From an uncultured Bacilli bacterium (GTDB lineage Bacteria > Bacillota_I > Bacilli_A > RF39 > UBA660): a stretch of 45,119 nucleotides of DNA. A program made the translations under genes and the position numbers. Shown here in pieces: positions 1-40,988 of this stretch. A model generated the notes under the pieces. The model was given only the letters and a program-made list of their open reading frames with translations. It ran no database searches and was not told the DNA's origin. Each line of letters opens with the position of its first letter. Positions within the stretch are counted from its first letter, which is position 1. The stretch is from NCBI GenBank assembly GCA_947600335.1, contig CANQGB010000006.1, forward strand, positions 1 through 45,119, read 5' to 3'.

Positions 1-146
1 TGATTACATTGTAATCCTTTTTTGTTTCATATAAGGCATAACTCTTATTTAACAATATACCCCCCCCCCAGACACATTCCTGCTATGCCTAGAGCGAGGA
101 GAGTCTTCTTATATTTATTGTTTTTCTTGAATTTTTTCAATTCCAT
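1..146 (-). CDS. SipW-type surface protein, N-terminal part only, phase-OFF by poly-G tract
   Basis: The ATG at 146 follows a purine-rich ribosome site (AGAGGGAGAG). It opens a lysine-rich N-region and a hydrophobic stretch (TLLALGIAGMCLGGG) of the kind seen in TasA/camelysin-class signal peptides. Ten G at 60-69 encode the glycine run. With ten G the frame stops at TAA after YIVK; with nine G it reads on through LLNKSYALYETKKDYNVI and stays open to the window edge. The SYALY/SYAYW motif after the hydrophobic core is typical of SipW-processed secreted proteins of gut Firmicutes. The gene continues beyond the left edge, so its mature domain is unseen. Promoter, tract and the first residues after the tract match the gene at 38902-40927. 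That it is secreted is family knowledge; that it is switched by slippage is inference. Confidence 0.7.
60..69 (-). repeat. G10 homopolymer in the signal-peptide coding region
   Basis: Ten consecutive C on the plus strand (G on the coding strand). Nine G would keep the surface-protein frame open; ten closes it. A run of this length is a slippage site, and it has an equal-length twin at 40850-40859. Confidence 0.85.
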
Positions 147-5793: not shown

Positions 5794-7623
5794 TTAATTT
5801 TTAGATAAACACCTACTGTTTTCATTGATATTAAAATTCTGTAACCAAATATTGTTGGCTAAACACCAAGAACCTATATATTTTATATTGGGTAAATTAA
5901 GATTTACTAGTGAAACATTTTCATATAAAAAGTAATTGGCTATTTTCAATATATTAGGTAAATATATTTCTTGTAAGCATTTATTATTACATAAAAAATT
6001 ATCTTCTATTTCTAAAACCTTTGGTAAATATAAAGTTTTTAATGCGTTATTATAATATAAAAAATTTTTGTCAATTTTTACAACATTTGATAAATTTATT
6101 TGATATAAATCTTGATTATTGCATAAAAAATTATAACCTACTTTAGTTACTTGAGGTAAATTTAATTCTTTTAAGATAGTGTTTTGTGATAAAAAGGTAT
6201 CGCCAACTATTTCTAATTTTGGAAAATTTACTTTAGTTAATGATGTATTACTATACATAAAATCCGACCCGATTATTTTAACTTGAGGTAAAAATATTTG
6301 TTTAAGAATTTGATTATAGTATAAAAAACTATCTTCTATTTCCAAGACATTGGGTAAATATATTTCTTCCAAGGCTTCATTATCACTTAAAAAATTATAG
6401 CCAATAGTTTTTACACAGGGCAAAGCGATTTTTTTTAAAATTTCATTGGAATCTAAAAAATGAGTTCCTATTTCTATGACTTTTGGCAATTCTATTGCTT
6501 TTAAGCTTTTAGAAAATGTTAAAAAATTATTACCAATTATCTTAACTTGAGGTAATTCTATTTTAGTTAATGATTCATTATAATATAAAAAATCATCATT
6601 TATTTCTTCAATATAAGGGTTTGTTAAACCAATGATGCGGTTTCTTTGGTCTAGCTCTAATGTTACTAATCCTTTTATTGTTTCGATTTTAACTACTTTA
6701 GTATCAGCAATTATTACCAAGTCTATTTTTTTAATGGGATTATCTTGAAAAAATTGGGGAAAGCAATCAGATTCTTCTTGGTCATAGCATCTAATAGTTT
6801 TTTCTTGCCTATCTATTAAAAAGTAATCAGCTAAAATGTATCTTTCTTTAGGAAACTTTATAATTTCATGGTTAACTAAGATGCAATTATTAGGACAATA
6901 ATTGATGCCATTTATTTCATAATTGTATTTATAATTTTTACCTTGGCCATCGCAAATATAATCTGGGATTTCAAATTCACTAATATATTTTTGATTTAAA
7001 TTATAATAATGGGCAAAACTAGAAGTTAGACCTTCAACAATGTTATCTAGGTTGTTAGAGAATGTGGCATCGGGATTTTTTACAGTATGATTGTATCTGT
7101 TTTTAATAGATAAAGTATGCGCCTCATTTTTATCAAATTGAATACTGATAACGGATGTTCCATATAAGTCTTGTCTTTTGGGATGGTTAAAATCTTCTCT
7201 TTTGATATTATCAACATCTTTTTTGACCGCAAAGAAGACATAGCAATCATTTAAGCGACCACCATTAAAAGTACATAATTTTTCACATGGAGCATAATAT
7301 TTTTTAAAGCTTTGAATATCTTCTTCACTTTTACATTCATATAAATCATAACCAACACTAGCAAGGAGTTCTTGAGGAGTTTTGTTTTCAGTAATAGTTA
7401 ATATTTCTTCTTTATTAAATTTTCGATAAATAAATGATTTAAAATTAGCTTCCAAATTGGCTTTTTTTAAATCGTTGAATAACTCTTTGGAAGGTTCAAA
7501 AAAGGTTAGTAATAAATCGGATAAAACACCTGGTTCCTCTAAAATAGTTGCAAAATTATCCCGACAAAAGTGCATCATTTTTTCACCATATTTTTTCTTA
7601 ATTATTTTTAAATCCTCTATCAT
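5794..7623 (-). CDS. LRR paralogue 5 (12 repeats, divergent tail)
   Basis: Cytoplasmic by lack of a signal peptide or membrane helix. Residues 1-200 are the family's conserved N-domain (MIEDLKIIKKKYGEKMMHFC, then the blocks CTFNGGRLNDCYVFFAVKKD and YGTSVISIQFDKN). A middle region (about 215-335) includes the shared ILADYFLIDRQEKTI. Residues about 340-600 are twelve 22-residue repeats of the form xxFLxxNxxLxxIxLPxVxxIG, close to the BspA/Treponema LRR type. The tail (NENSRCLSKN) differs from all four sisters. I start at the second of two ATGs (7623), which matches the sisters. It has its own strong promoter. Molecular function unknown; LRRs usually bind proteins. Confidence 0.85.
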   Translation of the reverse strand: MIEDLKIIKKKYGEKMMHFCRDNFATILEEPGVLSDLLLTFFEPSKELFNDLKKANLEANFKSFIYRKFNKEEILTITENKTPQELLASVGYDLYECKSEEDIQSFKKYYAPCEKLCTFNGGRLNDCYVFFAVKKDVDNIKREDFNHPKRQDLYGTSVISIQFDKNEAHTLSIKNRYNHTVKNPDATFSNNLDNIVEGLTSSFAHYYNLNQKYISEFEIPDYICDGQGKNYKYNYEINGINYCPNNCILVNHEIIKFPKERYILADYFLIDRQEKTIRCYDQEESDCFPQFFQDNPIKKIDLVIIADTKVVKIETIKGLVTLELDQRNRIIGLTNPYIEEINDDFLYYNESLTKIELPQVKIIGNNFLTFSKSLKAIELPKVIEIGTHFLDSNEILKKIALPCVKTIGYNFLSDNEALEEIYLPNVLEIEDSFLYYNQILKQIFLPQVKIIGSDFMYSNTSLTKVNFPKLEIVGDTFLSQNTILKELNLPQVTKVGYNFLCNNQDLYQINLSNVVKIDKNFLYYNNALKTLYLPKVLEIEDNFLCNNKCLQEIYLPNILKIANYFLYENVSLVNLNLPNIKYIGSWCLANNIWLQNFNINENSRCLSKN

Positions 7624-7652
7624 CATAAAACCCCTTTTTTATATTGGAGGGT

Positions 7653-7681
7653 ATTTTACCATACTTTATGATAGCTGTCAA
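7653..7681 (-). promoter_or_regulatory. Promoter of LRR paralogue 5
   Basis: TTGACA (7681-7676), 17 bp, TAAAAT (7658-7653) with an extended TG. A near-consensus site in the 86-bp gap before the gene. Confidence 0.8.
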
Positions 7682-7712
7682 ATTAACTAGACCACCCAGT
7701 TAAAATAAGTTC

Positions 7713-9632
7713 TTAGCGATGTTTTTTCTGTAACTTTAAAGTGTTAGAACAATTTTTTTTCATCTCCAAAAATATTTGTTTTAAAGTGTATAAATTAATA
7801 TGTTCTTTTAATATTTGATGGTAAACATTTTCATCTAAAACATTTATTACTTGCAACATTTTATCATTTGGTAAAAAACTTTTACCTATTTCGGTAACAT
7901 AAGGCATATCTACTATTTTTAAAATTTTATTAGAATATAGAAATTCCTCATATATAGTTTTAGCCCTTGGTAAATTTATTTCGGTTAGAAATTCATTATT
8001 ATGTAAAAACCAAGCACCGATTATTTCCGCCTCTGGTAAATCAATTTTAGTTAAGAAAACATTATTACGCAAAAAATTATAACCTATTTTTTTAACTTGG
8101 GGAAGTACAATTTCCTTTAAAGCCAAATTAATATATAAAAAGTTATAGCTAATCTCTTCACATTTAGGTAACTTAATATTTCTTAACTTCTTATTATTAT
8201 TCATAAATCCAGAATCGATAGTTTTAACATTTGGTAAATTGATTGTTTCTAGGTTTTCATTCTTTTGTAAAAAATTACAACCTATCTTTGTCGCCTGAGA
8301 AAGCAAAATTTCTTGTAAGAAAATATTATTGTCTAAAAAATGATTAGGTACCTTTTTAACATTAGGCAAAGCTATTTTTTCTAAAAATTCATTATGTTGT
8401 AAAAAGCCTGCGGCAATACTTTTTACTTTTGGTATATCTATGTGGTTAAGAATTTTATTGAATCTTAAAAAATCTTGGCCTATAGTAATGACATTGGGCA
8501 AGTTGATTGTTTCTAATAATACATTATTATTTAAAAAATAAGAACCTATATTTCTCACTTTGGGTAAATCTATGGCTTTTAACCATTTATTATAGAACAT
8601 AAAATTATCGCCTATTTCTTTAACATAGGGAATAATTAAACTAATAATTTTGTTTTCTTGGTCTAGTTCTAAAGTTACTGTGCCTTTGATGGTTTCTATT
8701 TTAACTATTTTCCTATCGTTTTGATTTTCTAAGTCTATCTTTTTTATAGGAGTTTTTTTAAACATCGAGATAAAGCCATCTTCTCTGTTTCTGTAACATT
8801 TAATAGTTTTTTCTTGTCTATCAATGATAAAATAATCAGCCAAGATATATCTTTCCTTAGGATAACGAATGGCTCGACGATAATCAATTATAATATTATT
8901 TGTTCCATAACAAGTGCCATACATTTCGTAATTATATTTGTAGTATTTTCCTTGATTATCTCTAGTATATTCTGGAATGTCAAACTTCGTAATGTGGACT
9001 TGTTTGAGATTATAATGCAGAGCAAAACTATCGGTTAAGCCTTCAACGATGTTATCTAAGTTATTGGAGAATGTGGCATCAGGATTATTCACTGTATGAT
9101 TATAACGATTTTTAATAGATAAGGTATGGGCATCATTTTTATCAAATTGAATGCTAATCACGGATGTTCCATATAAGTCTTGTCTTTGAGGCTTTTTAAA
9201 ATTTTTTCGTTTAATATTATCAACATCTTTTTTGACAGCAAAGAAAACATAACATTGATTTAACCTACCACCATAAAAAGTACAAAGTTCTTCATCAGGT
9301 TCATAATACTTTTTAAATTTTTGAATATCTTTTTCACTTTTACACTCATATAAAATATACCCAACACTAGCCAGTAATTCTTGGGGAGTTTTAGCTCCAG
9401 ATATAATTAATTTTCCTTCTTTATTAAATTTCTGATAGATAAAGTCTTTAAAATCATCTTCTAAATTGGCTTTTTCTAAATCAGCAAATAATTCTTTGGA
9501 TGGTTCAAAATAAGTCAGTAATAAATTGGATAATATTCCTGGTTCTTCCAAAATAGTCGCAAAAGCTTCCCGACAAAAATGCATCATATCTTCTCCATAT
9601 TTTTTCTTGATTATCTTTAAGTCATCTATCAT
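7713..9632 (-). CDS. LRR paralogue 4 (12 repeats, tail type A)
   Basis: 639 residues with the family N-domain, middle region and twelve 22-residue repeats (FMFYN through FLPND), then a helical basic tail of about 45 residues ending CSNTLKLQKKHR. That tail is shared only with the most upstream paralogue (13508-15166), not with its immediate neighbours. The ATG follows the previous stop by four bases (TGA TAAT ATG), so it is translated from the same message as paralogues 2 and 3. The N-domain has small changes, e.g. YILYECKS. Function unknown. Confidence 0.85.
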   Translation of the reverse strand: MIDDLKIIKKKYGEDMMHFCREAFATILEEPGILSNLLLTYFEPSKELFADLEKANLEDDFKDFIYQKFNKEGKLIISGAKTPQELLASVGYILYECKSEKDIQKFKKYYEPDEELCTFYGGRLNQCYVFFAVKKDVDNIKRKNFKKPQRQDLYGTSVISIQFDKNDAHTLSIKNRYNHTVNNPDATFSNNLDNIVEGLTDSFALHYNLKQVHITKFDIPEYTRDNQGKYYKYNYEMYGTCYGTNNIIIDYRRAIRYPKERYILADYFIIDRQEKTIKCYRNREDGFISMFKKTPIKKIDLENQNDRKIVKIETIKGTVTLELDQENKIISLIIPYVKEIGDNFMFYNKWLKAIDLPKVRNIGSYFLNNNVLLETINLPNVITIGQDFLRFNKILNHIDIPKVKSIAAGFLQHNEFLEKIALPNVKKVPNHFLDNNIFLQEILLSQATKIGCNFLQKNENLETINLPNVKTIDSGFMNNNKKLRNIKLPKCEEISYNFLYINLALKEIVLPQVKKIGYNFLRNNVFLTKIDLPEAEIIGAWFLHNNEFLTEINLPRAKTIYEEFLYSNKILKIVDMPYVTEIGKSFLPNDKMLQVINVLDENVYHQILKEHINLYTLKQIFLEMKKNCSNTLKLQKKHR

Positions 9633-9636
9633 ATTA

Positions 9637-11523
9637 TCATCTCTTCTCTTTTGCTAATTTTCTAGTTAAAGTTTTCCCTTGATATTCGGGATGTTGTCTG
9701 ATAAATTCTTGATATGCTTCTTCGCTATTAATGATAACTTCGTTTAAAATCGTGTTTTTAGTTAAGAAATCATCATATAGATATATTACATTTGATAAAT
9801 CTATTTTAGTTAAAGCAATATTATTATATAAAAAACTATCACCGATGGTTTCAATATTTGGCATATATATATCTTGTAAGCATTTATTCATAAATAAAAA
9901 GTAAGTGCCAATTATTTTAAGTTGAGGTAAATATATTTTTTCTAATGAATCATTATTAAATAAAAAATCATCATTTATTTCTAAGACATTTGGTAAATTT
10001 ATTGTTGTTAACACGCGATTATTGTACAAAAAACAACTGTCTATCGTTTTTACATTGGGCAAATCTATTTTTTCTAAAGATATATTGTCTAATAAAAAAT
10101 CATCTCCAATCCTTTCAACATTAGATAAATCTATTTTCTTTAAATTTTTATTACATCTTAAAAAATTATTACCAATTTCTTTAACCTTAGGAATACTCAA
10201 TTCTTGCAAACATCTATTAGCTGTTAAAAAATCGTGAGGGATAACTTCAATTTCTGGCAATGTAAGAGTTTTTAAACTAGAATTATAGGTTAAAAATTGG
10301 GTTCTTATTTCTTTTACTTTAGGCATTGTTAATTCTTTTAACTGGACATTAAAATGTAAAAAATGATTTCCTACTTTCGTAACATTTGGTAAATTTAATT
10401 CTTTTAGGCATTCATTTTGACATAAAAAATCATTCCCAATAATCTTAACTTGAGGTAGTTCTATTTTAGATAATGCTTCATTATAATACAAAAAATCATT
10501 ACCTATTTCTTCAATATAAGGATTGGTTAAACCAATAATTTTATTTTCTTTATCTAGTTCTAATGTTATTGTTCCTTTTTGGGTTTCAATTTTAACTATT
10601 TTGATATCATTTTTAATTTCTAAATCTATCTTTTCTATAGGGTTATCATCAAACATTTCAACAAATGCATCTTCTAAATTATCATAAGTGGTAATAGTTT
10701 TTTCTTGTCTATCAATTAGAAAATACTCAGCTAAGATATATCTTTCTTTCGGAAACTTTATAGCTTCGTGCTCAACTAATATACAATTATTAGTACAATA
10801 ATAAGTCCCATCAATCTCATAAATATATTTATAATATTTTCCTTGATTATCTCGTTCATAATTTGGTATTTCAAATTCGTTAACATATTTTTGTTTTAAG
10901 TCATAATATTCTGCAAAACTATCAGTTAAACCTTCAACGATGTTATCTAGGTTATTGGAGAATGTGGCATCAGGATTGGCAACAGTATGATTATATCTAT
11001 TTTTGATAGATAAGGTATGGGCATCATTTTTATCAAATTGAATGCTTATCACCGAAGTACCATATAAGTCTTGTCTTTTGGGATTGTTAAAATCTTCCCG
11101 TTTGATATTATCAACATCTTTTTTGACAGCAAAGAAAACATAACATTTATTTAATCGTCCGCCATTAAAAGTACATAGCTTTTCACCTTTAGCATAATAT
11201 TTTTTAAATTTTTGAATATCTTCTTCACTTTCACATTCAAATAAATCATAACCAACACTAGATAGTAATTCTTGAGGGGTTTTATTTCTGTTTATAACTA
11301 ATGGTTCTTCTTTATTAAATTTTCGATAAATAAAGTTTTTAAAATCAGTTTCTAAATTTTCTTTTTCTAAATCGGAAAATAATTCTTTAGATGGTTCAAA
11401 ATAAGTTAGTAATAAATTGGATAAAACACTTGGTTCTTCTAAAATAGTCGCAAAAGCATCTCGACAAAAATGCATCATTTCTTCGCCATATTTTTTCTTG
11501 ATTATCTTTAAGTCATCTATCAT
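9637..11523 (-). CDS. LRR paralogue 3 (12 repeats, tail type B)
   Basis: 628 residues in the family layout. Twelve repeats run from NDFLYYN to DDFLTKN. The tail HPEYQGKTLTRKLAKEKR is shared with paralogue 2. It is separated from both neighbours by four-base gaps, with AAGGAAAAAAGTGATAAT before its ATG. The residues that vary between repeats lie at the two x positions after FL and around the LxxIxL strand, which are the solvent-exposed LRR positions; the F, L, N, LP and IG scaffold is nearly fixed. Function unknown. Confidence 0.85.
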   Translation of the reverse strand: MIDDLKIIKKKYGEEMMHFCRDAFATILEEPSVLSNLLLTYFEPSKELFSDLEKENLETDFKNFIYRKFNKEEPLVINRNKTPQELLSSVGYDLFECESEEDIQKFKKYYAKGEKLCTFNGGRLNKCYVFFAVKKDVDNIKREDFNNPKRQDLYGTSVISIQFDKNDAHTLSIKNRYNHTVANPDATFSNNLDNIVEGLTDSFAEYYDLKQKYVNEFEIPNYERDNQGKYYKYIYEIDGTYYCTNNCILVEHEAIKFPKERYILAEYFLIDRQEKTITTYDNLEDAFVEMFDDNPIEKIDLEIKNDIKIVKIETQKGTITLELDKENKIIGLTNPYIEEIGNDFLYYNEALSKIELPQVKIIGNDFLCQNECLKELNLPNVTKVGNHFLHFNVQLKELTMPKVKEIRTQFLTYNSSLKTLTLPEIEVIPHDFLTANRCLQELSIPKVKEIGNNFLRCNKNLKKIDLSNVERIGDDFLLDNISLEKIDLPNVKTIDSCFLYNNRVLTTINLPNVLEINDDFLFNNDSLEKIYLPQLKIIGTYFLFMNKCLQDIYMPNIETIGDSFLYNNIALTKIDLSNVIYLYDDFLTKNTILNEVIINSEEAYQEFIRQHPEYQGKTLTRKLAKEKR

Positions 11524-11527
11524 ATTA

Positions 11528-13414
11528 TCACTTTTTTCCTTTTGTTAATTTTCTAGTTAAAGTTCTCTCTTGATATTCAGGATGTTGCCATAAGAAATCT
11601 TGATATGCTTTTTCATTATCAATAATAACCTCTTCTAGCCATTTGTTTTTTTGCAAAAAGCACATTCCAATTATTTTAATTTTGGGCAAGTATATTTTAG
11701 TTAATGAATTATTATTGTGCATAAAATAATGTTCTATTCTCACTACATTTGGCATATTTATTTTTTCTAAAATTTGATTACAGTCTAAAAAATTAGAATC
11801 TATTATTTCTACATTTGGTAAATCTATTTCTTTTAAATTTTGATTATGACATAAGAAACGATAACCAATTGTTTTAACATTCGGTAAAGATATATTAGAT
11901 AAAGACTCATTGTGATACAAAAAATTATTATCAATTCTTTCAACTTTAGGTAATTCTATTTGAATTAAAGACTTGTTATTAGCTAAAAAATTAGAACCAA
12001 TTATTTTAACATTTGGTAAAGATATTTGGCTAATAATTTCATTGTCATCCAAAAAGTAGTTATCTATTTCTAAGGCATTTGGAATGTTTATTCTTTCTAA
12101 TGTTTTATTATACTTTAAAAAACTAGAGCCGATACTTTCAACTTTAGGTAAATCTACTTCTTTCAAATTGTTATTATGCATTAAAAATCCCATATTTATT
12201 CTTAAGACATTGGGCATATTTATTTTATCTAATAATTCATTAATATGCAAAAAATCATAACCAACTCTATGAACTTTTGGCAAATCTATCTCTTTTAAAT
12301 TTTGGTTATTGGCTAAAAAATTATTCCCAATTATTTTAACTTGAGGCAATTCTATTTTAGATAAAGACTTATTATAATATAAATAGTTGCTCTCTATTTT
12401 TTCAATATAGGGATTAGTTAAACCAATTATTCTGTTTCTTTTATCTAATTCTAGAGTAACCAATCCTTTAGTTGTTTCAATTTTAACTAGTTTGACGTTA
12501 TCCTTTATTTCTAAGTCTATCTTGCTAATCGGATTGTCTTTAAAAAATTTGGGAAAGTAATCATCTTCTTGATTAAAACATTTAATAGTTTTTTCTTGTC
12601 TATCTATCAAAAAATAATCAGCTAATATATACCTATCTTTAGGAAACTTTATAGCTTCGTGATTAAGTAGTATACAATTATTAGGACAATAATTGACGCC
12701 TTCTATTTCATAATTATATTTGTAATATTTTCCTTTATAATCTCGAATATAATCTGGTATTTCAAATTCGTTAACATGTTTTTGTTTTAAGTCATAATGC
12801 AAGGCGAAACTATCAGTTAAACCTTCAACGATGTTATCTAAGTTGTTTGAAAATGTTGCATCGGGATTGGCAACAGTATGATTGTACCTGTTTTTGATAG
12901 ATAAAGTATGGGCTTCGTTTTTATCAAATTGTATACTAATCACAGATGTCCCATATAAGTCTTGTCTTTCTGGAGTTTTAAAATCTTCCCGTTTAATATT
13001 ATCAACGTCTTTTTTGACAGCGAAGAAGACATAACATTTATTTAACCTGTCTCCATTAAAAGTACACAATTCTTCACCTTTAGCATAATATTTTTTAAAT
13101 TTTTGAATATCTTCTTCACTTTCACACTTATATAAATCATAACCAACACTAGATAGTAATTCTTGAGGAGTTTTGGTTTCTGTTATAGTAACTTGCTCTT
13201 CATTATTAAATTTACGATAGATAAAAGATTTGAAATTATTTTCTAAATTTTCTGTTTGTAAATCAGAAAATAATTCTTTGGAAGGTTCAAAATAAGTTAA
13301 TAATAAATCAGATAAAACTCCAGGTTCTTCTAAAATAGTCGCAAAAGCATCTCGACAAAAATGCATCATTTCTTCGCCATATTTTTTCTTGATTATCTTT
13401 AAGTCATCTATCAT
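11528..13414 (-). CDS. LRR paralogue 2 (12 repeats, tail type B), first gene of a three-gene operon
   Basis: From the ATG at 13414 the product has 628 residues; a GTG three codons earlier is in frame, but AGGGGTG spaces correctly only to 13414, and the sisters begin there. Twelve 22-residue repeats follow the N-domain and middle region; the tail HPEYQERTLTRKLTKGKK is type B. A strong promoter with a 39-bp leader segment identical to that of paralogue 1 drives this gene and paralogues 3 and 4. Function unknown. Confidence 0.85.
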   Translation of the reverse strand: MIDDLKIIKKKYGEEMMHFCRDAFATILEEPGVLSDLLLTYFEPSKELFSDLQTENLENNFKSFIYRKFNNEEQVTITETKTPQELLSSVGYDLYKCESEEDIQKFKKYYAKGEELCTFNGDRLNKCYVFFAVKKDVDNIKREDFKTPERQDLYGTSVISIQFDKNEAHTLSIKNRYNHTVANPDATFSNNLDNIVEGLTDSFALHYDLKQKHVNEFEIPDYIRDYKGKYYKYNYEIEGVNYCPNNCILLNHEAIKFPKDRYILADYFLIDRQEKTIKCFNQEDDYFPKFFKDNPISKIDLEIKDNVKLVKIETTKGLVTLELDKRNRIIGLTNPYIEKIESNYLYYNKSLSKIELPQVKIIGNNFLANNQNLKEIDLPKVHRVGYDFLHINELLDKINMPNVLRINMGFLMHNNNLKEVDLPKVESIGSSFLKYNKTLERINIPNALEIDNYFLDDNEIISQISLPNVKIIGSNFLANNKSLIQIELPKVERIDNNFLYHNESLSNISLPNVKTIGYRFLCHNQNLKEIDLPNVEIIDSNFLDCNQILEKINMPNVVRIEHYFMHNNNSLTKIYLPKIKIIGMCFLQKNKWLEEVIIDNEKAYQDFLWQHPEYQERTLTRKLTKGKK

Positions 13415-13420
13415 TAAAAA

Positions 13421-13459
13421 CACCCCTAGATTTAGGTTCCTATTCTAGCATAAAAACTA
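13421..13459 (-). repeat. 39-bp leader duplication, copy 1
   Basis: Identical base for base to 15174-15212. It contains the extended -10, the transcript start and the AGGGGTG ribosome site. Confidence 0.85.
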
Positions 13460-13470
13460 ATACCTGTCAA
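13442..13470 (-). promoter_or_regulatory. Promoter of LRR paralogues 2-4
   Basis: TTGACA (13470-13465), 17 bp, TAGAAT (13447-13442) with extended TGC. It overlaps the 39-bp segment 13421-13459 that is repeated exactly at 15174-15212. Confidence 0.8.
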
Positions 13471-13507
13471 AAAAACTAAAAAGATGAAGAAAATAAATTT
13501 TAATAAT

Positions 13508-15166
13508 TTATCTATGTTTTTTCTGTAACTTTAAAGCATTAGAACAACTTTTTTTCATTTTCAATAACGCTTGTTTTAAAATGTATAAATTAATATGTTT
13601 TCTTAATATGTGATAATAAACAGTCTTATCTAAAACATTAATTATTTGTAACTCTTTATCATTTTCTAAAAAATTTTTACCTATTTTCGTAACATAAGGG
13701 ATATCGATTCTTTTTAAAATTTTATTGGAATATAGAAATCCATCATATATAGTTTTAGCACTTGGTAAATTTATTTCTGTTAAGGATTCATTATTATATA
13801 AAAACCAAGAACCGATAGTTTCAATTTGAGGTAAATAAATATCTTTTAAATTTTCATTATAATATAGGAAACTACGACCAATTAATTTTACTTGAAACAA
13901 ATTTATTTTAGATAAAGATAAATTATTATACAAAAAGTCATCCTTAATTATTTCTACTTTAGGTAAATCTATTTTTTTTAAATTATTATTATCATATAAG
14001 AAACCTTGACCAATTATTTTTGCTTGAGGTAAATTTAATTCTTTTAATTCTAAGTTTTGATATAAAAAATCATTCCCAATAACCTTAACTTGAGGTAGTT
14101 CTATTTTAGATAAACATTCGTTCAACCATAAAAAGAGGTTACCTATTTCTTCAATATAAGGATTAGTTAAGCCAATTATTCTATTTCTTTTATCTAATTC
14201 TAGAGTTACCAATCCTTTAGTTGTTTCTATTTTAACTATTTTGGTATTATCGATTATTTCTAAGTCTATTTTCTTTATCGGATTATCTTGAAAAAATTGA
14301 GGAAAACTATCAATATTTTCTTCATCATAACATTTAATAGTTTTTTCTTGTCTATCTATCAAAAAATAATCAGCTAAGATGTATCTTTCTTTGGGATATT
14401 TGATGGCCTCGTGCTCAACTAATACACAATTATTAGTACAATAATGAACACCATTCATTTCATAATTATATTTATAATATTTTCCTTGATTATCTCGTTC
14501 ATAACTTGATATTTCAAATTCGTTAATATATTTTTGTTTTAAGTCATAATATTCTGCAAAACTATCAGTTAAACCTTCAACGATATTATCTAGGTTATTG
14601 GAGAATGTTGCATCAGGATTATCTACAGTATGATTGTATCTATTTTTGATAGATAAAGTATGGGCTTCATTTTTATCAAATTGAATGCTTATAACCGAAG
14701 TTCCATATAAGTCTTGTCTTTTTGGATTGCTAAAATCTTCTCTTTTGATATTATCAACATCTTTTTTGACAGCAAAGAAAACATGACATTGATTTAATCT
14801 GCCTCCGTTAAAAGTACACAGTTCTTCACCGGGTGCATAATATTTCTTAAATTTTTGAATATCTTCTTCGTTTTTACATTCATACAAATCATAACCGACG
14901 CTTGCTAAAAGTTCTTGAGGAGTTTTGGTTTCTGTTATAGTAACTTGCTCTTCTTTATTAAATTTACGATAGATAAAAGATTTAAAATCATTTTCTAAAT
15001 TTTCTTCTTGTAAATCAGAAAATAATTCTTTTGATGGTTCAAAATAAGTTAATAATAAATTGGATAAAACACCTGGTTCTTCTAAAATAGTCGCAAAAGC
15101 ATCTCGGCAAAAATGCATCATTTCTTCGCCATATTTTTTCTTAATTATCTTTAAGTCATCTACCAT
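13508..15166 (-). CDS. LRR paralogue 1 (8 repeats, tail type A)
   Basis: 552 residues, the shortest member. N-domain and middle region are complete, but only eight 22-residue repeats are present (NLFLWLN to KNFLEND), against twelve in each sister. The basic tail ending CSNALKLQKKHR is type A, shared with paralogue 4; the two differ in length by 87 residues, about four repeats. This points to loss or gain of four whole repeats by recombination. It has its own promoter and a leader identical to that of paralogue 2. Start at the ATG at 15166 behind AGGGGTG. Function unknown. Confidence 0.85.
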   Translation of the reverse strand: MVDDLKIIKKKYGEEMMHFCRDAFATILEEPGVLSNLLLTYFEPSKELFSDLQEENLENDFKSFIYRKFNKEEQVTITETKTPQELLASVGYDLYECKNEEDIQKFKKYYAPGEELCTFNGGRLNQCHVFFAVKKDVDNIKREDFSNPKRQDLYGTSVISIQFDKNEAHTLSIKNRYNHTVDNPDATFSNNLDNIVEGLTDSFAEYYDLKQKYINEFEISSYERDNQGKYYKYNYEMNGVHYCTNNCVLVEHEAIKYPKERYILADYFLIDRQEKTIKCYDEENIDSFPQFFQDNPIKKIDLEIIDNTKIVKIETTKGLVTLELDKRNRIIGLTNPYIEEIGNLFLWLNECLSKIELPQVKVIGNDFLYQNLELKELNLPQAKIIGQGFLYDNNNLKKIDLPKVEIIKDDFLYNNLSLSKINLFQVKLIGRSFLYYNENLKDIYLPQIETIGSWFLYNNESLTEINLPSAKTIYDGFLYSNKILKRIDIPYVTKIGKNFLENDKELQIINVLDKTVYYHILRKHINLYILKQALLKMKKSCSNALKLQKKHR

Positions 15167-28980: not shown

Positions 28981-29691
28981 TTATCTTTCTTTACTATTGC
29001 TAGTTGTATCTTCCCAATCTAAGTCTGTCAAATCTGCATTTTCCGAGTACTCATTTATTACCGATGAATCATTTACTATATTTTCTGGGAAAGTCAAAGT
29101 GCTTCTATCTAGCCTTTCTTTTGTTTTTTCTAAGGTTTCTTTGTACTGAGAAGTTAATTCTTGAATAGTTGAAGGTGATAATTGTCTTTCAAAACCGGGA
29201 TTTAATTTTACTAATTGTTTTTCAACATCAAAACAACCTACTATAAACTTAGGATTGAGATAATTAATGATTTTTCCATCTTGAGTGGCTTTTTTGAGCA
29301 TAAAAGCACCATACATTTCGCCATCTAAATCTCCTCTATCACCCATCATATTTATATATTCCGTAGGTATTCGGATAATAATTATTTTTTGTGAATCTAA
29401 ATGTTGCCAATTATTAAATTGTTTTTTTAAACTAGCAATTGTAGGTTCAGGAAGACCAAATTCAGCATATTGTTGTTTTAACTCAGGAGTTGGTGTACTT
29501 AAGCCTACGGTTGTATAGTATAAAGAATTATCTTTGGTTCTTAAGCCTTCTTGAAAAATGGCATCAACTATTTCTTCAGAATCACCACTTCTTCCGGTTC
29601 CATGTCCTAAACACATATAGCCACTTTCTGATAAAATGGGAGCTAAGTCTTCTAGTAAAATATAATTATATTCATCTGATTTATCTAACAT
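28981..29691 (-). CDS. Candidate ADP-ribosyltransferase-fold protein
   Basis: 236 residues, no signal peptide. The N-terminal half follows the H-Y-E ART pattern: a strand ending in YMCLGHGTGR (H30), a helix ending IFQEGL, a strand NSLYYTTVGLS (Y58/Y59), then KIIIIRIPTEYI and a possible glutamate E125 in DLDGEMYG, with a final strand PKFIVGCFD. HGT-x(n)-GL followed by a YYT strand is typical of ART-like enzymes that use NAD. The last 75 residues are hydrophilic and probably disordered. It is the last gene of a three-gene unit; an ADP-ribosylglycohydrolase is 1.6 kb upstream. GAGAGGTAAATTAT precedes the ATG. The fold call is moderate and activity is unproven. Confidence 0.5.
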   Translation of the reverse strand: MLDKSDEYNYILLEDLAPILSESGYMCLGHGTGRSGDSEEIVDAIFQEGLRTKDNSLYYTTVGLSTPTPELKQQYAEFGLPEPTIASLKKQFNNWQHLDSQKIIIIRIPTEYINMMGDRGDLDGEMYGAFMLKKATQDGKIINYLNPKFIVGCFDVEKQLVKLNPGFERQLSPSTIQELTSQYKETLEKTKERLDRSTLTFPENIVNDSSVINEYSENADLTDLDWEDTTSNSKER

Positions 29692-29705
29692 ATAATTTAC
29701 CTCTC

Positions 29706-30644
29706 TTATATTAATTTACCTAAGATAACTACTATAATTGAAAGAACTAAGATAATAAGCAGTTCTTTAGGTATAAATTTTCCATATTTCTTTTCCAGTT
29801 CCGTTATTTTATTTCTATTTTCTAAATTATTTATATTTTTTCCAATTATTATTTCACTGGTATTTAAATACTCATCGATATCATCTTTATAAATACTTTT
29901 CATATTTTTAGAATCGTAACCGGCATATTTTTTTGGTGGGGTAATATTAGCATAAAGATTATCTATTTTTCTTTCAAAAAAAGTTGTGCCTATCATAAAT
30001 CCTAATATTAAAGTTGCTATCGGAAATAGTACAAAAGTCATACTATAGGCATATCTTACAGCTGGAACGAATACTAATAAAGTACAAATAATAATACTCG
30101 GTATCATTCCTAAAGCGAAAGTTACTTTATTTGTAATAGCATTTTTCTTTTTAATTAATCTATCATATTTTTCTGGAGCGTTTGTAATTTTTTCTTTGAT
30201 TAATCGGAATACATCATCCATTTTATCATCTTCACTACTTAAATTGACTTCTATATCCATTTTATTTTCATAAATATTCATATTAATATATTGTCTAACA
30301 CTTTTGGAAAAATCTCTTCCATGTTCAATCCAATAACTAAAGTCATATCTTACCCACATATCTTTAACTTCTTGAAGTCTAGTATTAAATATTGGCATAA
30401 AAGTATTATAATTATCAACGGTTATGGTAGTGTCATCATAAAAATTAAAGGTACACTTAAAAGAGGCTTCAAAATTTTTCATTGTCCAGTTTTGATATTC
30501 GCGTTCAAATTTCTCATTTTGCAATATTTCTTGATTCGAAATTTTTTTGCTTTCTAACATTTCTTCATTCATTTTTTGAAAAATATCCATTAAATCACTA
30601 TCAGATATTATTTTATTTGCAACTTTTATTGTATCATTATACAT
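29706..30644 (-). CDS. Three-helix membrane protein, 312 residues
   Basis: A cytoplasmic N-terminal domain (1-165) with aromatic-rich beta segments (NFYDDTTITVDNYN, WVRYDFSYWIEHG) is followed by two membrane helices (about 172-194 and 198-218), a charged loop and a C-terminal helix (about 293-311). GGAGG precedes the ATG. It lies between the 186-residue-frame gene and the ART-like gene with gaps of 17 and 14 bp, so it belongs to that operon. No recognised domain; it could be the membrane partner of the ART-like protein. Confidence 0.65.
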   Translation of the reverse strand: MYNDTIKVANKIISDSDLMDIFQKMNEEMLESKKISNQEILQNEKFEREYQNWTMKNFEASFKCTFNFYDDTTITVDNYNTFMPIFNTRLQEVKDMWVRYDFSYWIEHGRDFSKSVRQYINMNIYENKMDIEVNLSSEDDKMDDVFRLIKEKITNAPEKYDRLIKKKNAITNKVTFALGMIPSIIICTLLVFVPAVRYAYSMTFVLFPIATLILGFMIGTTFFERKIDNLYANITPPKKYAGYDSKNMKSIYKDDIDEYLNTSEIIIGKNINNLENRNKITELEKKYGKFIPKELLIILVLSIIVVILGKLI

Positions 30645-30661
30645 TTTGAACCTCCGTTTTA

Positions 30662-31198
30662 TTATTTTTCTTTGTTACAAAAAATACAATTTGCCACAGG
30701 AAATTTTTTTAATATCGAATTAATTTGTTCTTCTATTTGATTCATACTTATATCATTATAATTAGATTTTCTAGCGAATGTTATTTCATAAGGTTTAAAT
30801 ATAATAACAAAAGAGTTTTCATGTTCTACTAAATCATTTCCTTTTCCTCGTTGAAAATCCATACATAATTTAATATCCATACTAGATATATTATTTAAAT
30901 TTCCATTTTTAATAGCGGTGATAAATGTTTCATAATCTTTACAAGTAATATTATTATAACTTTTTTCTCTAATATAAATTTCTAATTGTTGACCATAAGA
31001 ATGTTTGTAATTGTATTCTTTATATTCTGGTTTAAACTTTTTATTTTTTTCTTCATCGGCTTCAACTAGTTTGATTAATTGCTTGTTCATACTATCACAA
31101 TATTGGACTAAATATGAAACGGCTTCAATAGTTGGCAAGATGTTAGAATAATCAAATTCGTTATTAATAATAGCTTGACTTGTAAAATCATCGTTCAT
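30662..31198 (-). CDS. Hypothetical protein with C-terminal CxxC
   Basis: 178 residues from the ATG at 31198, chosen because AAGGAG lies 9 nt upstream; an in-frame TTG at 31222 would include that site. A soluble protein, helical in its first third (YSNILPTIEAVSYLVQYCDS), with beta strands later (ENSFVIIFKPYEITFARK) and ending NCIFCNKEK, a CxxC that could bind metal. First gene of the unit leading to the ART-like gene; an extended -10 (TGCTATAAT) is at 31240-31245. Function unknown. Confidence 0.65.
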   Translation of the reverse strand: MNDDFTSQAIINNEFDYSNILPTIEAVSYLVQYCDSMNKQLIKLVEADEEKNKKFKPEYKEYNYKHSYGQQLEIYIREKSYNNITCKDYETFITAIKNGNLNNISSMDIKLCMDFQRGKGNDLVEHENSFVIIFKPYEITFARKSNYNDISMNQIEEQINSILKKFPVANCIFCNKEK

Positions 31199-31239
31199 AA
31201 TTTTTTTCTCCTTCACTGACAAGAGTATTATCTTTTTAA

Positions 31240-31245
31240 ATTATA
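31240..31245 (-). promoter_or_regulatory. Extended -10 promoter of the ART-like operon
   Basis: TATGCTATAAT on the minus strand gives TGnTATAAT; no clear -35 at 17 bp. Confidence 0.5.
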
Positions 31246-31304
31246 GCATAGAACGTCAAACTTTACACCGTTATTTGCCTTTGTTTACAGTTTTTGGCAA
31301 TATA

Positions 31305-32447
31305 TCAATTAGTTTTATTTTTATTAGCATGAACATACTTGGCTATCCATAATTCATCTTGATTTACAGGGCAATCATTATATAAATCAGTAGCTAATTC
31401 AAGAATTGTTTCTTTTAATTCTAAATTTTCTTTATAATATGTGGGAATCGAATCATAGCCTAAATATGCTCCCATAATATTACCTGTTAGAGCACCAGTT
31501 GAATCACTATCTCCACTATGGTTAACGGCACAGATAATGGCTTTTTCAAAACTATCTGAGTATTTTAGAGATGCATAAACGGCAATCGCTATTGTTTCTT
31601 CAGCAACCCAGCCTTCTCCTAATTTATCTATAGCATTTTCATCAGCCATATCTAATTTGGATAAAGAAATAGCACTATTAATGAGTTTGGTAAAATATTT
31701 TAAATCTTTCGAATATTTTTTCATATTTTTATTTACACTACTTAAAGCTGATTTAATAGAATTTATTAACTTTTCATTTTTGTAAACAATATTATTGATG
31801 ATTGCTGTCATAAAATAAGAAGAAATGTGGGATAAAGGATGCCCATGAGTTAAGGCCGAGATTTTAGCACCAAGTAAATAGATATCTTCCTTACTTTTAT
31901 ATTGGGGATTAAAATACAAACCTACTGGAGCTACTCTCATTACACCACCGCAACCCTTACTATTATTTATGGGATTATTTATATTTTGAAATATTTCATC
32001 AGTACTTTTTGATAAGGCTTCTATACAAGTACCTCCAGGCGCTCTTTGAACATGTAACTCAGCAATATTATAAATCCAAGTAATACTATTGTATTCTTGG
32101 GGAACATTTTTATATTGAGTATAATACCAGTCTTTATATGCTAAACTGAGGTAAAATTCATATTCTTTATTTTTTCCTAACATTTGGTTTTGCGTTTGGC
32201 CATACAATAAGCCATTAGCCGTAAATAAAGTCATTTGGGTATCATCAGAGATAAGAGCTTTTCCATTATTTAAATCATATCTAGTTATCCCTAGTTGACC
32301 ATATTTTCTTTTAATATTAGGTAAATACATAAATTCAACTGAAGAACCTAAGGCATCGCCAACAGCTCCACCTATTAAGCAGCCCTTAAATTGATTTAAA
32401 TCTTTTAATTTATAATTATTAGTTTTTGTATACTTAAAAATTCTCAT
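31305..32447 (-). CDS. ADP-ribosylglycohydrolase (DraG/ARH family)
   Basis: 380 residues. These di-metal enzymes remove ADP-ribose from proteins or other acceptors. The motifs are complete: GCLIGGAVGDALGSSVEF (D31, E38), LISDDTQMTL (D68, D69 of the SDDT motif), and HSGDSDSTGALTGNIMGAYL (310 onward, with the aspartates that bind the two metals). A TAATG junction couples it to the 142-residue gene upstream. The proximity of an ART-like gene suggests opposing activities in one pathway, which is inference. Members of this family also act on free ADP-ribose derivatives, so substrate is open. Confidence 0.9.
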   Translation of the reverse strand: MRIFKYTKTNNYKLKDLNQFKGCLIGGAVGDALGSSVEFMYLPNIKRKYGQLGITRYDLNNGKALISDDTQMTLFTANGLLYGQTQNQMLGKNKEYEFYLSLAYKDWYYTQYKNVPQEYNSITWIYNIAELHVQRAPGGTCIEALSKSTDEIFQNINNPINNSKGCGGVMRVAPVGLYFNPQYKSKEDIYLLGAKISALTHGHPLSHISSYFMTAIINNIVYKNEKLINSIKSALSSVNKNMKKYSKDLKYFTKLINSAISLSKLDMADENAIDKLGEGWVAEETIAIAVYASLKYSDSFEKAIICAVNHSGDSDSTGALTGNIMGAYLGYDSIPTYYKENLELKETILELATDLYNDCPVNQDELWIAKYVHANKNKTN

Positions 32448-38901: not shown

Positions 38902-40927
38902 TTAAGATTTGGGAGCTAAAACGATACGATATGTTGATTGATTTGTATTTTCACCAGCAGAATTTATAAAAGCAAATATATTATTTTCATTTCCAAACGT
39001 ATAATATCCACCCCGCGTAATAATTGGTCTTGCAATTCCCAAAAACCAAGCTGCTGAAAAATACCACGAATTTATCCATTGACTTTGATATGTATTTTCT
39101 CTTTTAGCAAAAGGTCCTAATTCGCCAGTAGCATCACCCAATATTCTTCTAGTATAATTATTTTCAGAGGTTCCATAATTATATACATCATAATATTCTT
39201 TTTTGGTACTAGGAAAATCAATACCATCTGCTTTAGGAGTAAAAGCACCACCGTAATATTGTAATAAACCATTATATCCAGAATTACGCTCAGAATCCAT
39301 ACCAACGATATATTGACTATCTTCACTTATTTCTATACTCATCATATATTCTTCGGCTCCACCACTCATGTCATATATGCCAGTATAATTTCCAGTGGTA
39401 CTGGCAACTACACTATTTGGATTATTATAATTATAGCTATAAGTATTATCTGATTCTGGATTTACATCTTCATAATCTTTATAATTTAAATAATCTGCTT
39501 TGGGAAAACTTTTAGCTGCATAACCAGTCACATAATTCCCACTATTATTTAACATAATTTCTGTATTACCTTTTTCAACTGTATATTTACCATATTTACT
39601 ATGCGATAAATATGCTACTGCTCCCCATTCGGTATTTTTCATTAAATGACTATCTAATATAGTTTGATATTTAATACTATTTTCAAATGCATTAGACATA
39701 TTTATATTTCTCCAACTATATACATTTGGTTTAATTACTATTTCTTCTGTCACAATCTTATTTGTATTTGTGACATCCTCCGCTTCTGCTTTAGACTGAG
39801 CATCTTTATATCCTGTTTCAAATTTACCAATCCATAATCCATTTACTTCAAATGAGATAAATGCTGGATGAGTCATGAAATCTCCTACTTTACATTCTCC
39901 ACTATCTCCTGATTTTCCTTGCTTTCCATCTTCTGTCATTGGCGTTGTACATTCACCTTTAACACTATCTTTTGTATCTGTGGTTCCAAATTTGATTGGT
40001 ATTGTATGTACTTTACTTTCATCTATAGAAGTTAAGCCTTCATATAAACCTAAATCCCATAGTTGATAACTATATTTTGGTATCCAGACAAAATAACTTT
40101 CGATGTCATCTTCGGGTATTGGATTTCCAATACCTGGGTCTTGTTTGTCATCTGCAAGTATTACAGCATTCGCCCACTCAGAATTAGCATAGTTATACCA
40201 TTTCTTAGTTGTATCTGCCCTGGTTACTTTTCCATTCTCTCCAATTATAACTGGAATTAATCCTTCTCCTAATACTGGGTCTGTTCCATGTAAGATTTCT
40301 TCTGTATATTCGCCTTCTTGATTGTCAATTTCAGCTTCAATTGTTACTTTACTTTGAAATTCTTTATTCATTATTTCTTTTGATTTATCTACTTTAACTC
40401 CATCTACTGTCTCGTATAACTCTACTTCTTCTCCCATCCACATCCGTACATCGATACTCATTACTTGGTCTTTCTTTAAATGCCCTTCGTATACTTTGTA
40501 GGCTTTTGAATGATTCTCTATTATTCCTGTTGTTTCTGGATATGTTGTTAATACTTTATTTTCTTCATAATTTACTTTCGCTGTTATATATTTATCTGCT
40601 AATTTATCTTTGTTATTTAATGTTTCAATATTTACTTGATACTTTATATCGTTATCACAAATATTTTTTATTGTTACATTATATGGTTTTAATTGCTCGC
40701 CTTCACTATTTAATATGGACATGACATTGTTTAGTTGAATAGCATCAGTATCACTAAACTCCATTTCAAAACATTCACTGGCAAGACTATTTACTTCGGT
40801 TTGTTCATAACTCATTTTCCAATAAGCATAGCTCTTATTTAACAATATACCCCCCCCCCAGACACATTGTTGCTATGCCTAGAGTTAGGAGGGTATTCTT
40901 TATTATTTTATTTTTTTCTTTTTCCAT
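38902..40927 (-). CDS. SipW-type secreted surface protein with FGE/C-lectin-like domain, phase-OFF by poly-G tract
   Basis: ATG 40927, after TAGGAGGA, opens a signal peptide (TLLTLGIATMCLGGG). G10 at 40850-40859 puts a TAA soon after; with G9 the frame runs through LLNKSYAYWKM into 647 residues. After the SYAYW motif comes a TasA/camelysin-like beta domain (SECFEMEFSDTDAIQLNN and PYNVTIKNICDNDIKYQVNI). Residues about 230-647 resemble the formylglycine-generating/C-type-lectin-like fold: YFVWIPKYSYQLW, WIGKFETGY, GGAEEYM, ITRGGYYTF and a final YRIVLAPKS. Such proteins are secreted and assembled on the surface, and the lectin-like fold often binds ligands. Translation could also start weakly at TTG 40845, but that would lack the signal. 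Own promoter and terminator. Confidence 0.8.
40850..40859 (-). repeat. G10 homopolymer in the signal-peptide coding region
   Basis: Ten G on the coding strand. n divisible by 3 opens the frame, so nine or twelve G would be ON and ten is OFF. Confidence 0.9.
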
Positions 40928-40959
40928 TTTTTATTTTCCTCCTATTTTTCTATACCTTT

Positions 40960-40988
40960 ATTATAATTTGGATTTCTTTCAATTACAA
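40960..40988 (-). promoter_or_regulatory. SigA-type promoter of the surface-protein gene
   Basis: TTGTAA (40988-40983), 17 bp, TATAAT (40965-40960); same boxes as at 178-206. Confidence 0.75.

Follow-up and report, generated by a model that had tools for sequence, protein, structure and literature searches.

The window analysed here, a stretch of 45,119 nucleotides from an uncultured Bacilli bacterium, carries on its minus strand a gene that is interrupted by a run of guanines. A Shine–Dalgarno sequence (TAGGAGG, 40938..40944) precedes an ATG at 40927-40925, and the leader frame that starts at this codon (40835..40927) contains ten consecutive G at positions 40850..40859. At this length the gene encodes 30 residues (MEKEKNKIIKNTLLTLGIATMCLGGGYIVK), which can be read as MEKEKNKIIKNTLLTLGIATMC-L-GGG-YIVK, followed by a TAA stop at 40837-40835. 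In contrast, nine G would join the leader to a body of 648 open codons and a stop (38902..40848), which begins with ILLNKSYAYW and spans the end of the signal peptide, the mature protein and a weakly FGE-like C-terminal part. With stops expected at 0.074 per codon for this base composition, the chance of 648 open codons is about 2e-22. These observations confirm the first-pass annotation of this DNA with respect to the ribosome site, the start codon, the ten G, the dead end at ten and the joined frames at nine, and also its statement that the assembly caught the gene in the OFF state. The body had been described as a frame of 647 residues; the long open body is real, but the 647-aa open reading frame begins at a TTG within the signal peptide, which is not an alternative start. 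The promoter proposed in the same annotation (TTGTAA-17-TATAAT, 40988..40960, minus strand) is the top promoter-like match of the region. Since such matches are no commoner in this region than in shuffled sequences (13 versus 15.6), we keep it as a mere consensus match.

Runs of at least eight G form two tracts in the window (six matches, compared to a mean of 0.05 matches in shuffles). The second tract (60..69, minus strand) also consists of ten G and is also in the OFF state. It lies in the 5' end of a second, typical member of the same gene family (1..146, minus strand; ATG at 146-144), which is cut by the contig start. The gene at 40927, with its leader MEKEKNKIIKNTLLTLGIATMC and a different body, is a divergent member of this family.

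The first-pass annotation had assigned this gene to a SipW-type, TasA-like protein with a lectin-like C-terminal domain. The SipW-type designation agrees with the layout of the signal peptide (a hydrophobic stretch, then SYA-x-W/Y) and with a SipW/archaeal-type signal peptidase encoded in the same genome (TIGR02228, 92 bits, over the cut-off), but the cognate signal-peptide model TIGR04088 matched neither the window body nor a full ON gene (L011:1176-2372); only L188 scored, with 13.3 bits below the cut-off of 19. The TasA-like designation could not be upheld, as the window protein gave no match in Pfam or NCBIfam and no sequence match to the TasA/camelysin family. The resemblance to lectins is weak: seven of 12 relatives weakly touch PF03781 (E 0.0026-0.1), but these scores are below the curated cut-off and the window protein itself does not match this model. 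A profile built from the 12 relatives found nothing among PDB sequences. With a mean pLDDT of 45 and no match in PDB at E<=0.001, the structure predicted for the window protein was of too low quality to inform on the fold. We infer that the proteins of this family are surface-exposed binders.

Rfam and tRNA scans of the window returned nothing. Elsewhere in the window, five tandem paralogs of 552-639 aa (5794-15166, minus strand) share an N-terminal domain and contain BspA-type leucine-rich repeats (LRR_5 match, for the one paralog that was scanned). The region 28981-32447 encodes an ADP-ribosylglycohydrolase (PF03747; 31305-32447, minus strand) and a small protein (28981-29691, minus strand) with no Pfam match that by eye resembles ADP-ribosyltransferases.

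The genome to which the window belongs (1.23 Mb, 69 contigs) contains 18 tracts of nine or ten G but none of exactly seven or eight, counted as runs with a different base on either side. Fourteen of these 18 tracts, the window gene included, are located at the same codon of near-identical leaders, which typically read MELKKFKKNNKYKKTLLALGIAGMC-L-GGG. Among the 14 leaders the tract length is certainly nine in three (C13, C47 and C51) and ten in ten, and the tract on C31 is cut by the contig end. In a further copy, on C34 (L054:147-156), the tract is interrupted (GGGGGAGGGG), and the leader is not in frame with the intact body of 351 aa. Such a tract should hardly be prone to slip, and this family member is perhaps a locked-OFF copy. 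We counted at least 25 related bodies in this genome; because many of them lost their 5' end to contig breaks, a tract is not established for every one. In this family the tract is surrounded by a repeat that is conserved from -205 to about +70, and because of this repeat many contigs, including the one that begins with the window, end near a tract. Contig ends near tracts were therefore rejected as a sign of mixed tract lengths.

In the same genome, a G9 tract (L013:6964-6972 on C30) is located where a gene for a bacterial sugar transferase (PF02397) begins. At nine G this gene is out of frame with the upstream start, and its tract has no strong hairpin; we regard it as a candidate for another switch. 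The G9/G10 tracts on contigs C38 (L015) and C55 (L023) occur in different contexts, the latter in a region with a G+C-rich hairpin, and these two contigs may be foreign to the bin.

The first-pass annotation had missed a genus-wide gene family, a hairpin that contains the tract, and a retroelement. The sequence TG10T is present in 22 of the 22 genomes searched in the genus, and TG9T in 14 of them. The listed counts sum to 272 G10 and 34 G9 tracts (about 8:1), and the highest G10 counts per genome are 51, 40 and 35. Tracts of eight and eleven G were also found, so that lengths range from 8 to 11 with a mode of ten; since sampling was uneven (all G9 and most G11 tracts were fetched, G10 tracts only partly), we draw no inference from the exact shape of this distribution. 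Of 86 catalogued switch candidates, 68 have a long body, and 67 of these need a tract length of n = 0 mod 3. The single exception is a sugar transferase, and nine G corresponds to the ON state in all 67 surface-protein switch genes that could be scored, which bears out the ON/OFF architecture of the first-pass annotation. Because the leaders share ancestry, the constant register does not amount to independent evidence from 67 genes. The tract is located either inside the hydrophobic stretch, as in the window's own type, or in a short lead that precedes a complete signal peptide (MKKKNKNLPTLDSS-L-GGG-ILDNHKPRLEKFIKNKKQKQILIGTIIGIIVLIGGITLYRTFAMY). Similar short leads are fused to several distinct bodies.

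Public records with a coding-type tract come from uncultured Bacilli or Tenericutes, many of them from 'Lapin' samples. Outside the genus, the tract pattern was found in only four of 150 genera sampled in the family. None of these four contained a clear coding switch, and in three of them the tracts are preceded by TTGAC(A)-like hexamers, an arrangement expected of promoter spacers. The own-type leader gave no match in viral contigs, and a looser pattern matched 29 contigs. Tracts of G9-G11 also lie between TTGAC(A)-like and TATAAT-like hexamers at L098:1946, L106:2252, L295:1138, L327:1631, L334:1511, L348:1492 and L349:1478; promoter-spacer tracts of this kind within the genus are likely transcriptional switches that act by spacer length.

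In the window gene, the tract is part of a predicted hairpin in the coding leader (40848..40895, minus strand), with TACCCTCCT as 5' arm (pyrimidine run at 40893-40887) and a 3' arm that includes the G tract. A 131-nt stretch of the window folds at -31.7 kcal/mol (z -4.9), and the first five leaders that we folded gave z-scores of -3.7 to -4.9. As a control, we held the protein fixed and resampled the codons from the usage of the window. With this control, we obtained a mean z of -3.56 for 71 leaders, with p<=0.05 in 97% of them, and 94% of the tract bases were paired with the leader. The pyrimidine arm occurs in the variants CCCTCCT, CTCTCCTC and CCTCCC, and uses the leucine codon CTC, which accounts for 2.4% of leucine codons in six window genes. 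Nearly all changes in both stems of a 37-module alignment preserve G-C or G-U pairs. Since none of the pairs in this alignment changed on both sides, as formal covariation would require, support for the hairpin consists of the synonymous-codon control and the one-sided wobble changes. Folding predicts a strong structure for the RNA but a weak one for the DNA. The leader hairpins are not independent cases because of their shared ancestry, and the hairpin is not obligatory, since a few surface-protein switch genes do without it (L276, L280, L330 and L331).

The Shine–Dalgarno sequence of the window gene (40944-40938) is complementary to CCTCCTA in the leader (40893-40887; 7 bp), and in the main family AGGAGAG pairs with CTCTCCT. 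Sequestration of the ribosome site by the pyrimidine arm was nevertheless rejected, because between-species covariation is weak (cognate 5.5 versus 5.3 bp, permutation p 0.019) and folding favours the pairing of this arm with the G tract instead.

The genome of the window contains one detected reverse transcriptase (RT). This gene is part of a complete diversity-generating retroelement (DGR) on contig C19 (positions 5753-9467 of L055, which is C19:9001-21100). In order, the element comprises a 413-aa family member that lacks a G tract, an Avd-like protein, a tandem pair of template repeats (7423-7330 and 7143-7050 in L055, minus strand) and the RT. The RT matches PF00078 and the RT structure 8ub7 (5.5e-15), and the accessory protein matches phrog_3206, 'Avd protein of DGR' (1.1e-7). 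The template repeat TR2 (peptide AVTNSTNFANVNNNGNANNNNASNSDGGVRP) differs from the variable repeat of the cassette at 16 sites, 14 of which are TR adenines, and from a remote variable repeat on C30 at 18 substituted sites, 16 of them at adenines; a second count for the C30 repeat differs slightly. TR1 resembles a copy of TR2 that has been mutated at adenines. All of the 25 bodies end in YWLKAV, about 30 variable residues and GVRPRFLI, or close to that. Over all bodies, the mismatch rates to the template are 0.60 for A, 0.45 for C (mainly C to T), 0.28 for G and 0.22 for T, which suggests that most remote copies are old targets or otherwise diverged; in older paralogs the adenine bias is much less clear.

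The sister species G008 provides the link between the two systems. Three of its G10-switched genes carry an adenine-mutated variable repeat, with 18 of 21 (L268), 16 of 21 (L266) and 18 of 25 (L262) differences from the local template located at A; the bias is weaker in other genes of this species. The main family is a DGR target, and in this sister species the G10 switch and the adenine-mutated repeat reside in the same gene. In several species that are rich in G tracts no RT was detected, so the switch is independent of the retroelement. The templates of the RT in the window's own genome match another body type than that of the window gene; these templates include none for the C-terminus of the window gene, and we do not claim that the window gene itself is mutated by the retroelement. 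Template repeats that accompany RTs of 330-360 aa in sister species were set aside as belonging to other retroelements with other target types; the adenine-biased template/variable-repeat pairs near sister-species RTs at L232, L236, L242 and L251 also concern other target types.

To examine OFF genes, we used a set of 50 with at least 900 bases downstream of the tract. An ON-frame body of at least 200 aa is kept in 49 of them (median 373 aa), where a random open frame of 200 codons has a probability of 2e-7. The median dN/dS among comparable OFF paralogs is 0.30 (G007) and 0.38 (G010); two other sets of OFF paralogs, which mix body types, gave 0.73-0.76. Intact bodies and the low dN/dS where paralogs are comparable indicate that genes which are OFF in the assembly are used at least sometimes. 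The first-pass annotation had named uniform ten G with decay of the downstream frame as the pattern that would speak against a switch; such decay is not what these genes display.

Taken together, we consider it probable that this genus uses slipped-strand ON/OFF phase variation of a large repertoire of surface proteins, most of them OFF in any one cell. Every family gene would be switched separately through its leader, whose hypermutable G tract would gain or lose one G by slipped-strand replication errors. At nine G leader and body would be joined and the protein exported, whereas at ten (the commonest length), eight or eleven G the body would be out of frame. Because most copies are at ten, few of the approximately 25-50 proteins would be made per cell at once, and with genes that switch one at a time, the combinations of ON genes would differ from cell to cell. 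For some family members, the DGR would also rewrite the final ~30 residues; the target within its own cassette lacks a G tract. From the sequences we infer that the tracts slip in living populations, and presumably selection favours variation in the face of phage or host.

The excess of G10 and the RNA-level hairpin also fit programmed transcriptional slippage, and this reading has real support. Ten G would then be the working DNA length, and the nascent hairpin would make RNA polymerase drop one G in some transcripts, so that G10 genes give some full-length protein without any change in DNA. Conservation of the hairpin with the protein held fixed, arm changes that preserve G-C or G-U pairs, a structure that is strong as RNA but weak as DNA, and the dominance of one length from which every gene needs the same -1 change all point in this direction, and a nascent RNA stem loop is known to act in this manner in a Roseiflexus insertion sequence (PMC5009743). 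We still judge this explanation unlikely: DNA lengths vary from 8 to 11, the four surface-protein switch genes named above lack a hairpin, and the hairpin of the known case lies next to its tract instead of being built from it. Furthermore, the same-genus promoter-spacer tracts have no strong hairpin and can act only via DNA length, which supports switching at the level of DNA. A combination of both mechanisms is a similarly tentative option. In such a two-level switch, arm and tract would form an RNA slippage module that provides low levels of surface protein from G10 genes, and DNA slippage to nine would bring heritable high expression; if true, transcriptional and genetic control would be laid over retroelement-diversified proteins.

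Ribosomal +1 frameshifting on GGG codons, aided by the hairpin re-forming behind the ribosome, would also rescue G10 genes, which need a +1 shift, and the run does allow re-pairing on GGG codons within a hairpin. We consider this very improbable, because the shift point lacks a stop or slow codon, we found no known example of such a layout, and the changes in length are left unexplained. Homopolymers of this length are hard to call, and an assembly or sequencing error could in principle hide a true length of nine everywhere, with genes that are always on. However, G9 and G10 occur in one assembly at near-identical sites, and G10 recurs in every genome searched, some from separate public projects. 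In addition, in this AT-rich genome GGG makes up 8.5% of glycine codons, and a glycine run needs no pure G run. Error as the general explanation is therefore even less probable than frameshifting. The least credible reading is that most copies are dead pseudogenes with the tract as their lesion. The majority of copies are indeed out of frame and the C34 copy has the interrupted tract GGGGGAGGGG, but the intact OFF bodies and the dN/dS of 0.30-0.38 where comparable largely refute this idea.

Most of what is known about simple-repeat phase variation comes from pathogens in culture, whereas mutagenesis by retroelements is best known from phages and a scatter of hosts. Mycoplasmas contain multigene phase-variable surface families, such as vlhA of Mycoplasma gallisepticum. 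In layout, our family is like vlhA: a large paralog family with a repeat switch for each gene and most copies off. In vlhA, however, the repeats consist of GAA and lie upstream of the gene, and the products are lipoproteins. As cited in PMC9187656, gsmA of M. agalactiae has a G tract. Another parallel is the gut commensal Bifidobacterium breve, in which replication slippage of G tracts switches sortase-dependent pili (PMC9187656). Both systems share an intragenic G tract of similar length, a frame fusion that leads to a surface structure, a gut commensal as host and an ON state that is often in the minority. Unlike the two loci of B. breve, about 25-50 paralogs per genome are found here, with another protein family and export route, a hairpin around the tract and retroelement-diversified tips. 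The poly-G contingency genes of Campylobacter, Helicobacter and Neisseria are also numerous in each genome and include coding and promoter-spacer tracts (PMC4965091, PMC8355987, PMC5084427). Most of those genes encode glycan enzymes or are of mixed kinds, and their 5' ends are unrelated, whereas here one leader module with one constant ON length serves a multigene family.

As in known DGRs, RT, Avd and template and variable repeats are all present in the window's own genome, template and variable repeats differ with an adenine bias, and the target end is hypervariable. What sets the present case apart from known DGRs is that a G-tract ON/OFF switch is found in remote targets of a sister species, and that the own genome has two tandem template repeats. 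In the Roseiflexus insertion sequence, hairpin-stimulated transcriptional slippage produces transcripts that lack one nucleotide (reviewed in PMC5009743). A nascent RNA hairpin at a homopolymer is common to both cases, and here the full-length product of G10 genes would, under transcriptional slippage, likewise depend on transcripts short of one nucleotide; the Roseiflexus hairpin is adjacent to a T5C5 site, whereas here the G run itself is the 3' arm. Phase variation by a G tract is already known for the surface structure of a gut commensal (PMC9187656), and retroelements are known as well. In titles and abstracts of mainly open-access literature, we found no report of slippage or phase variation joined with a retroelement target, or of either in the present lineage.

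Standard annotation overlooks the proteins of this family because most copies appear truncated. If the tracts do slip, gut metagenomes should contain mixed nine and ten G at family loci, and the conserved hairpin prompts the question of whether a homopolymer switch is tuned by RNA structure. Although its genomes measure just 1-1.5 Mb, this uncultured Bacilli genus assigns as many as about 50 genes to G-tract switching; in some of its species, a retroelement targets the switched genes as well. Two tasks would thereby be separated: the G tract would decide which variant is made, and the retroelement what this variant looks like.
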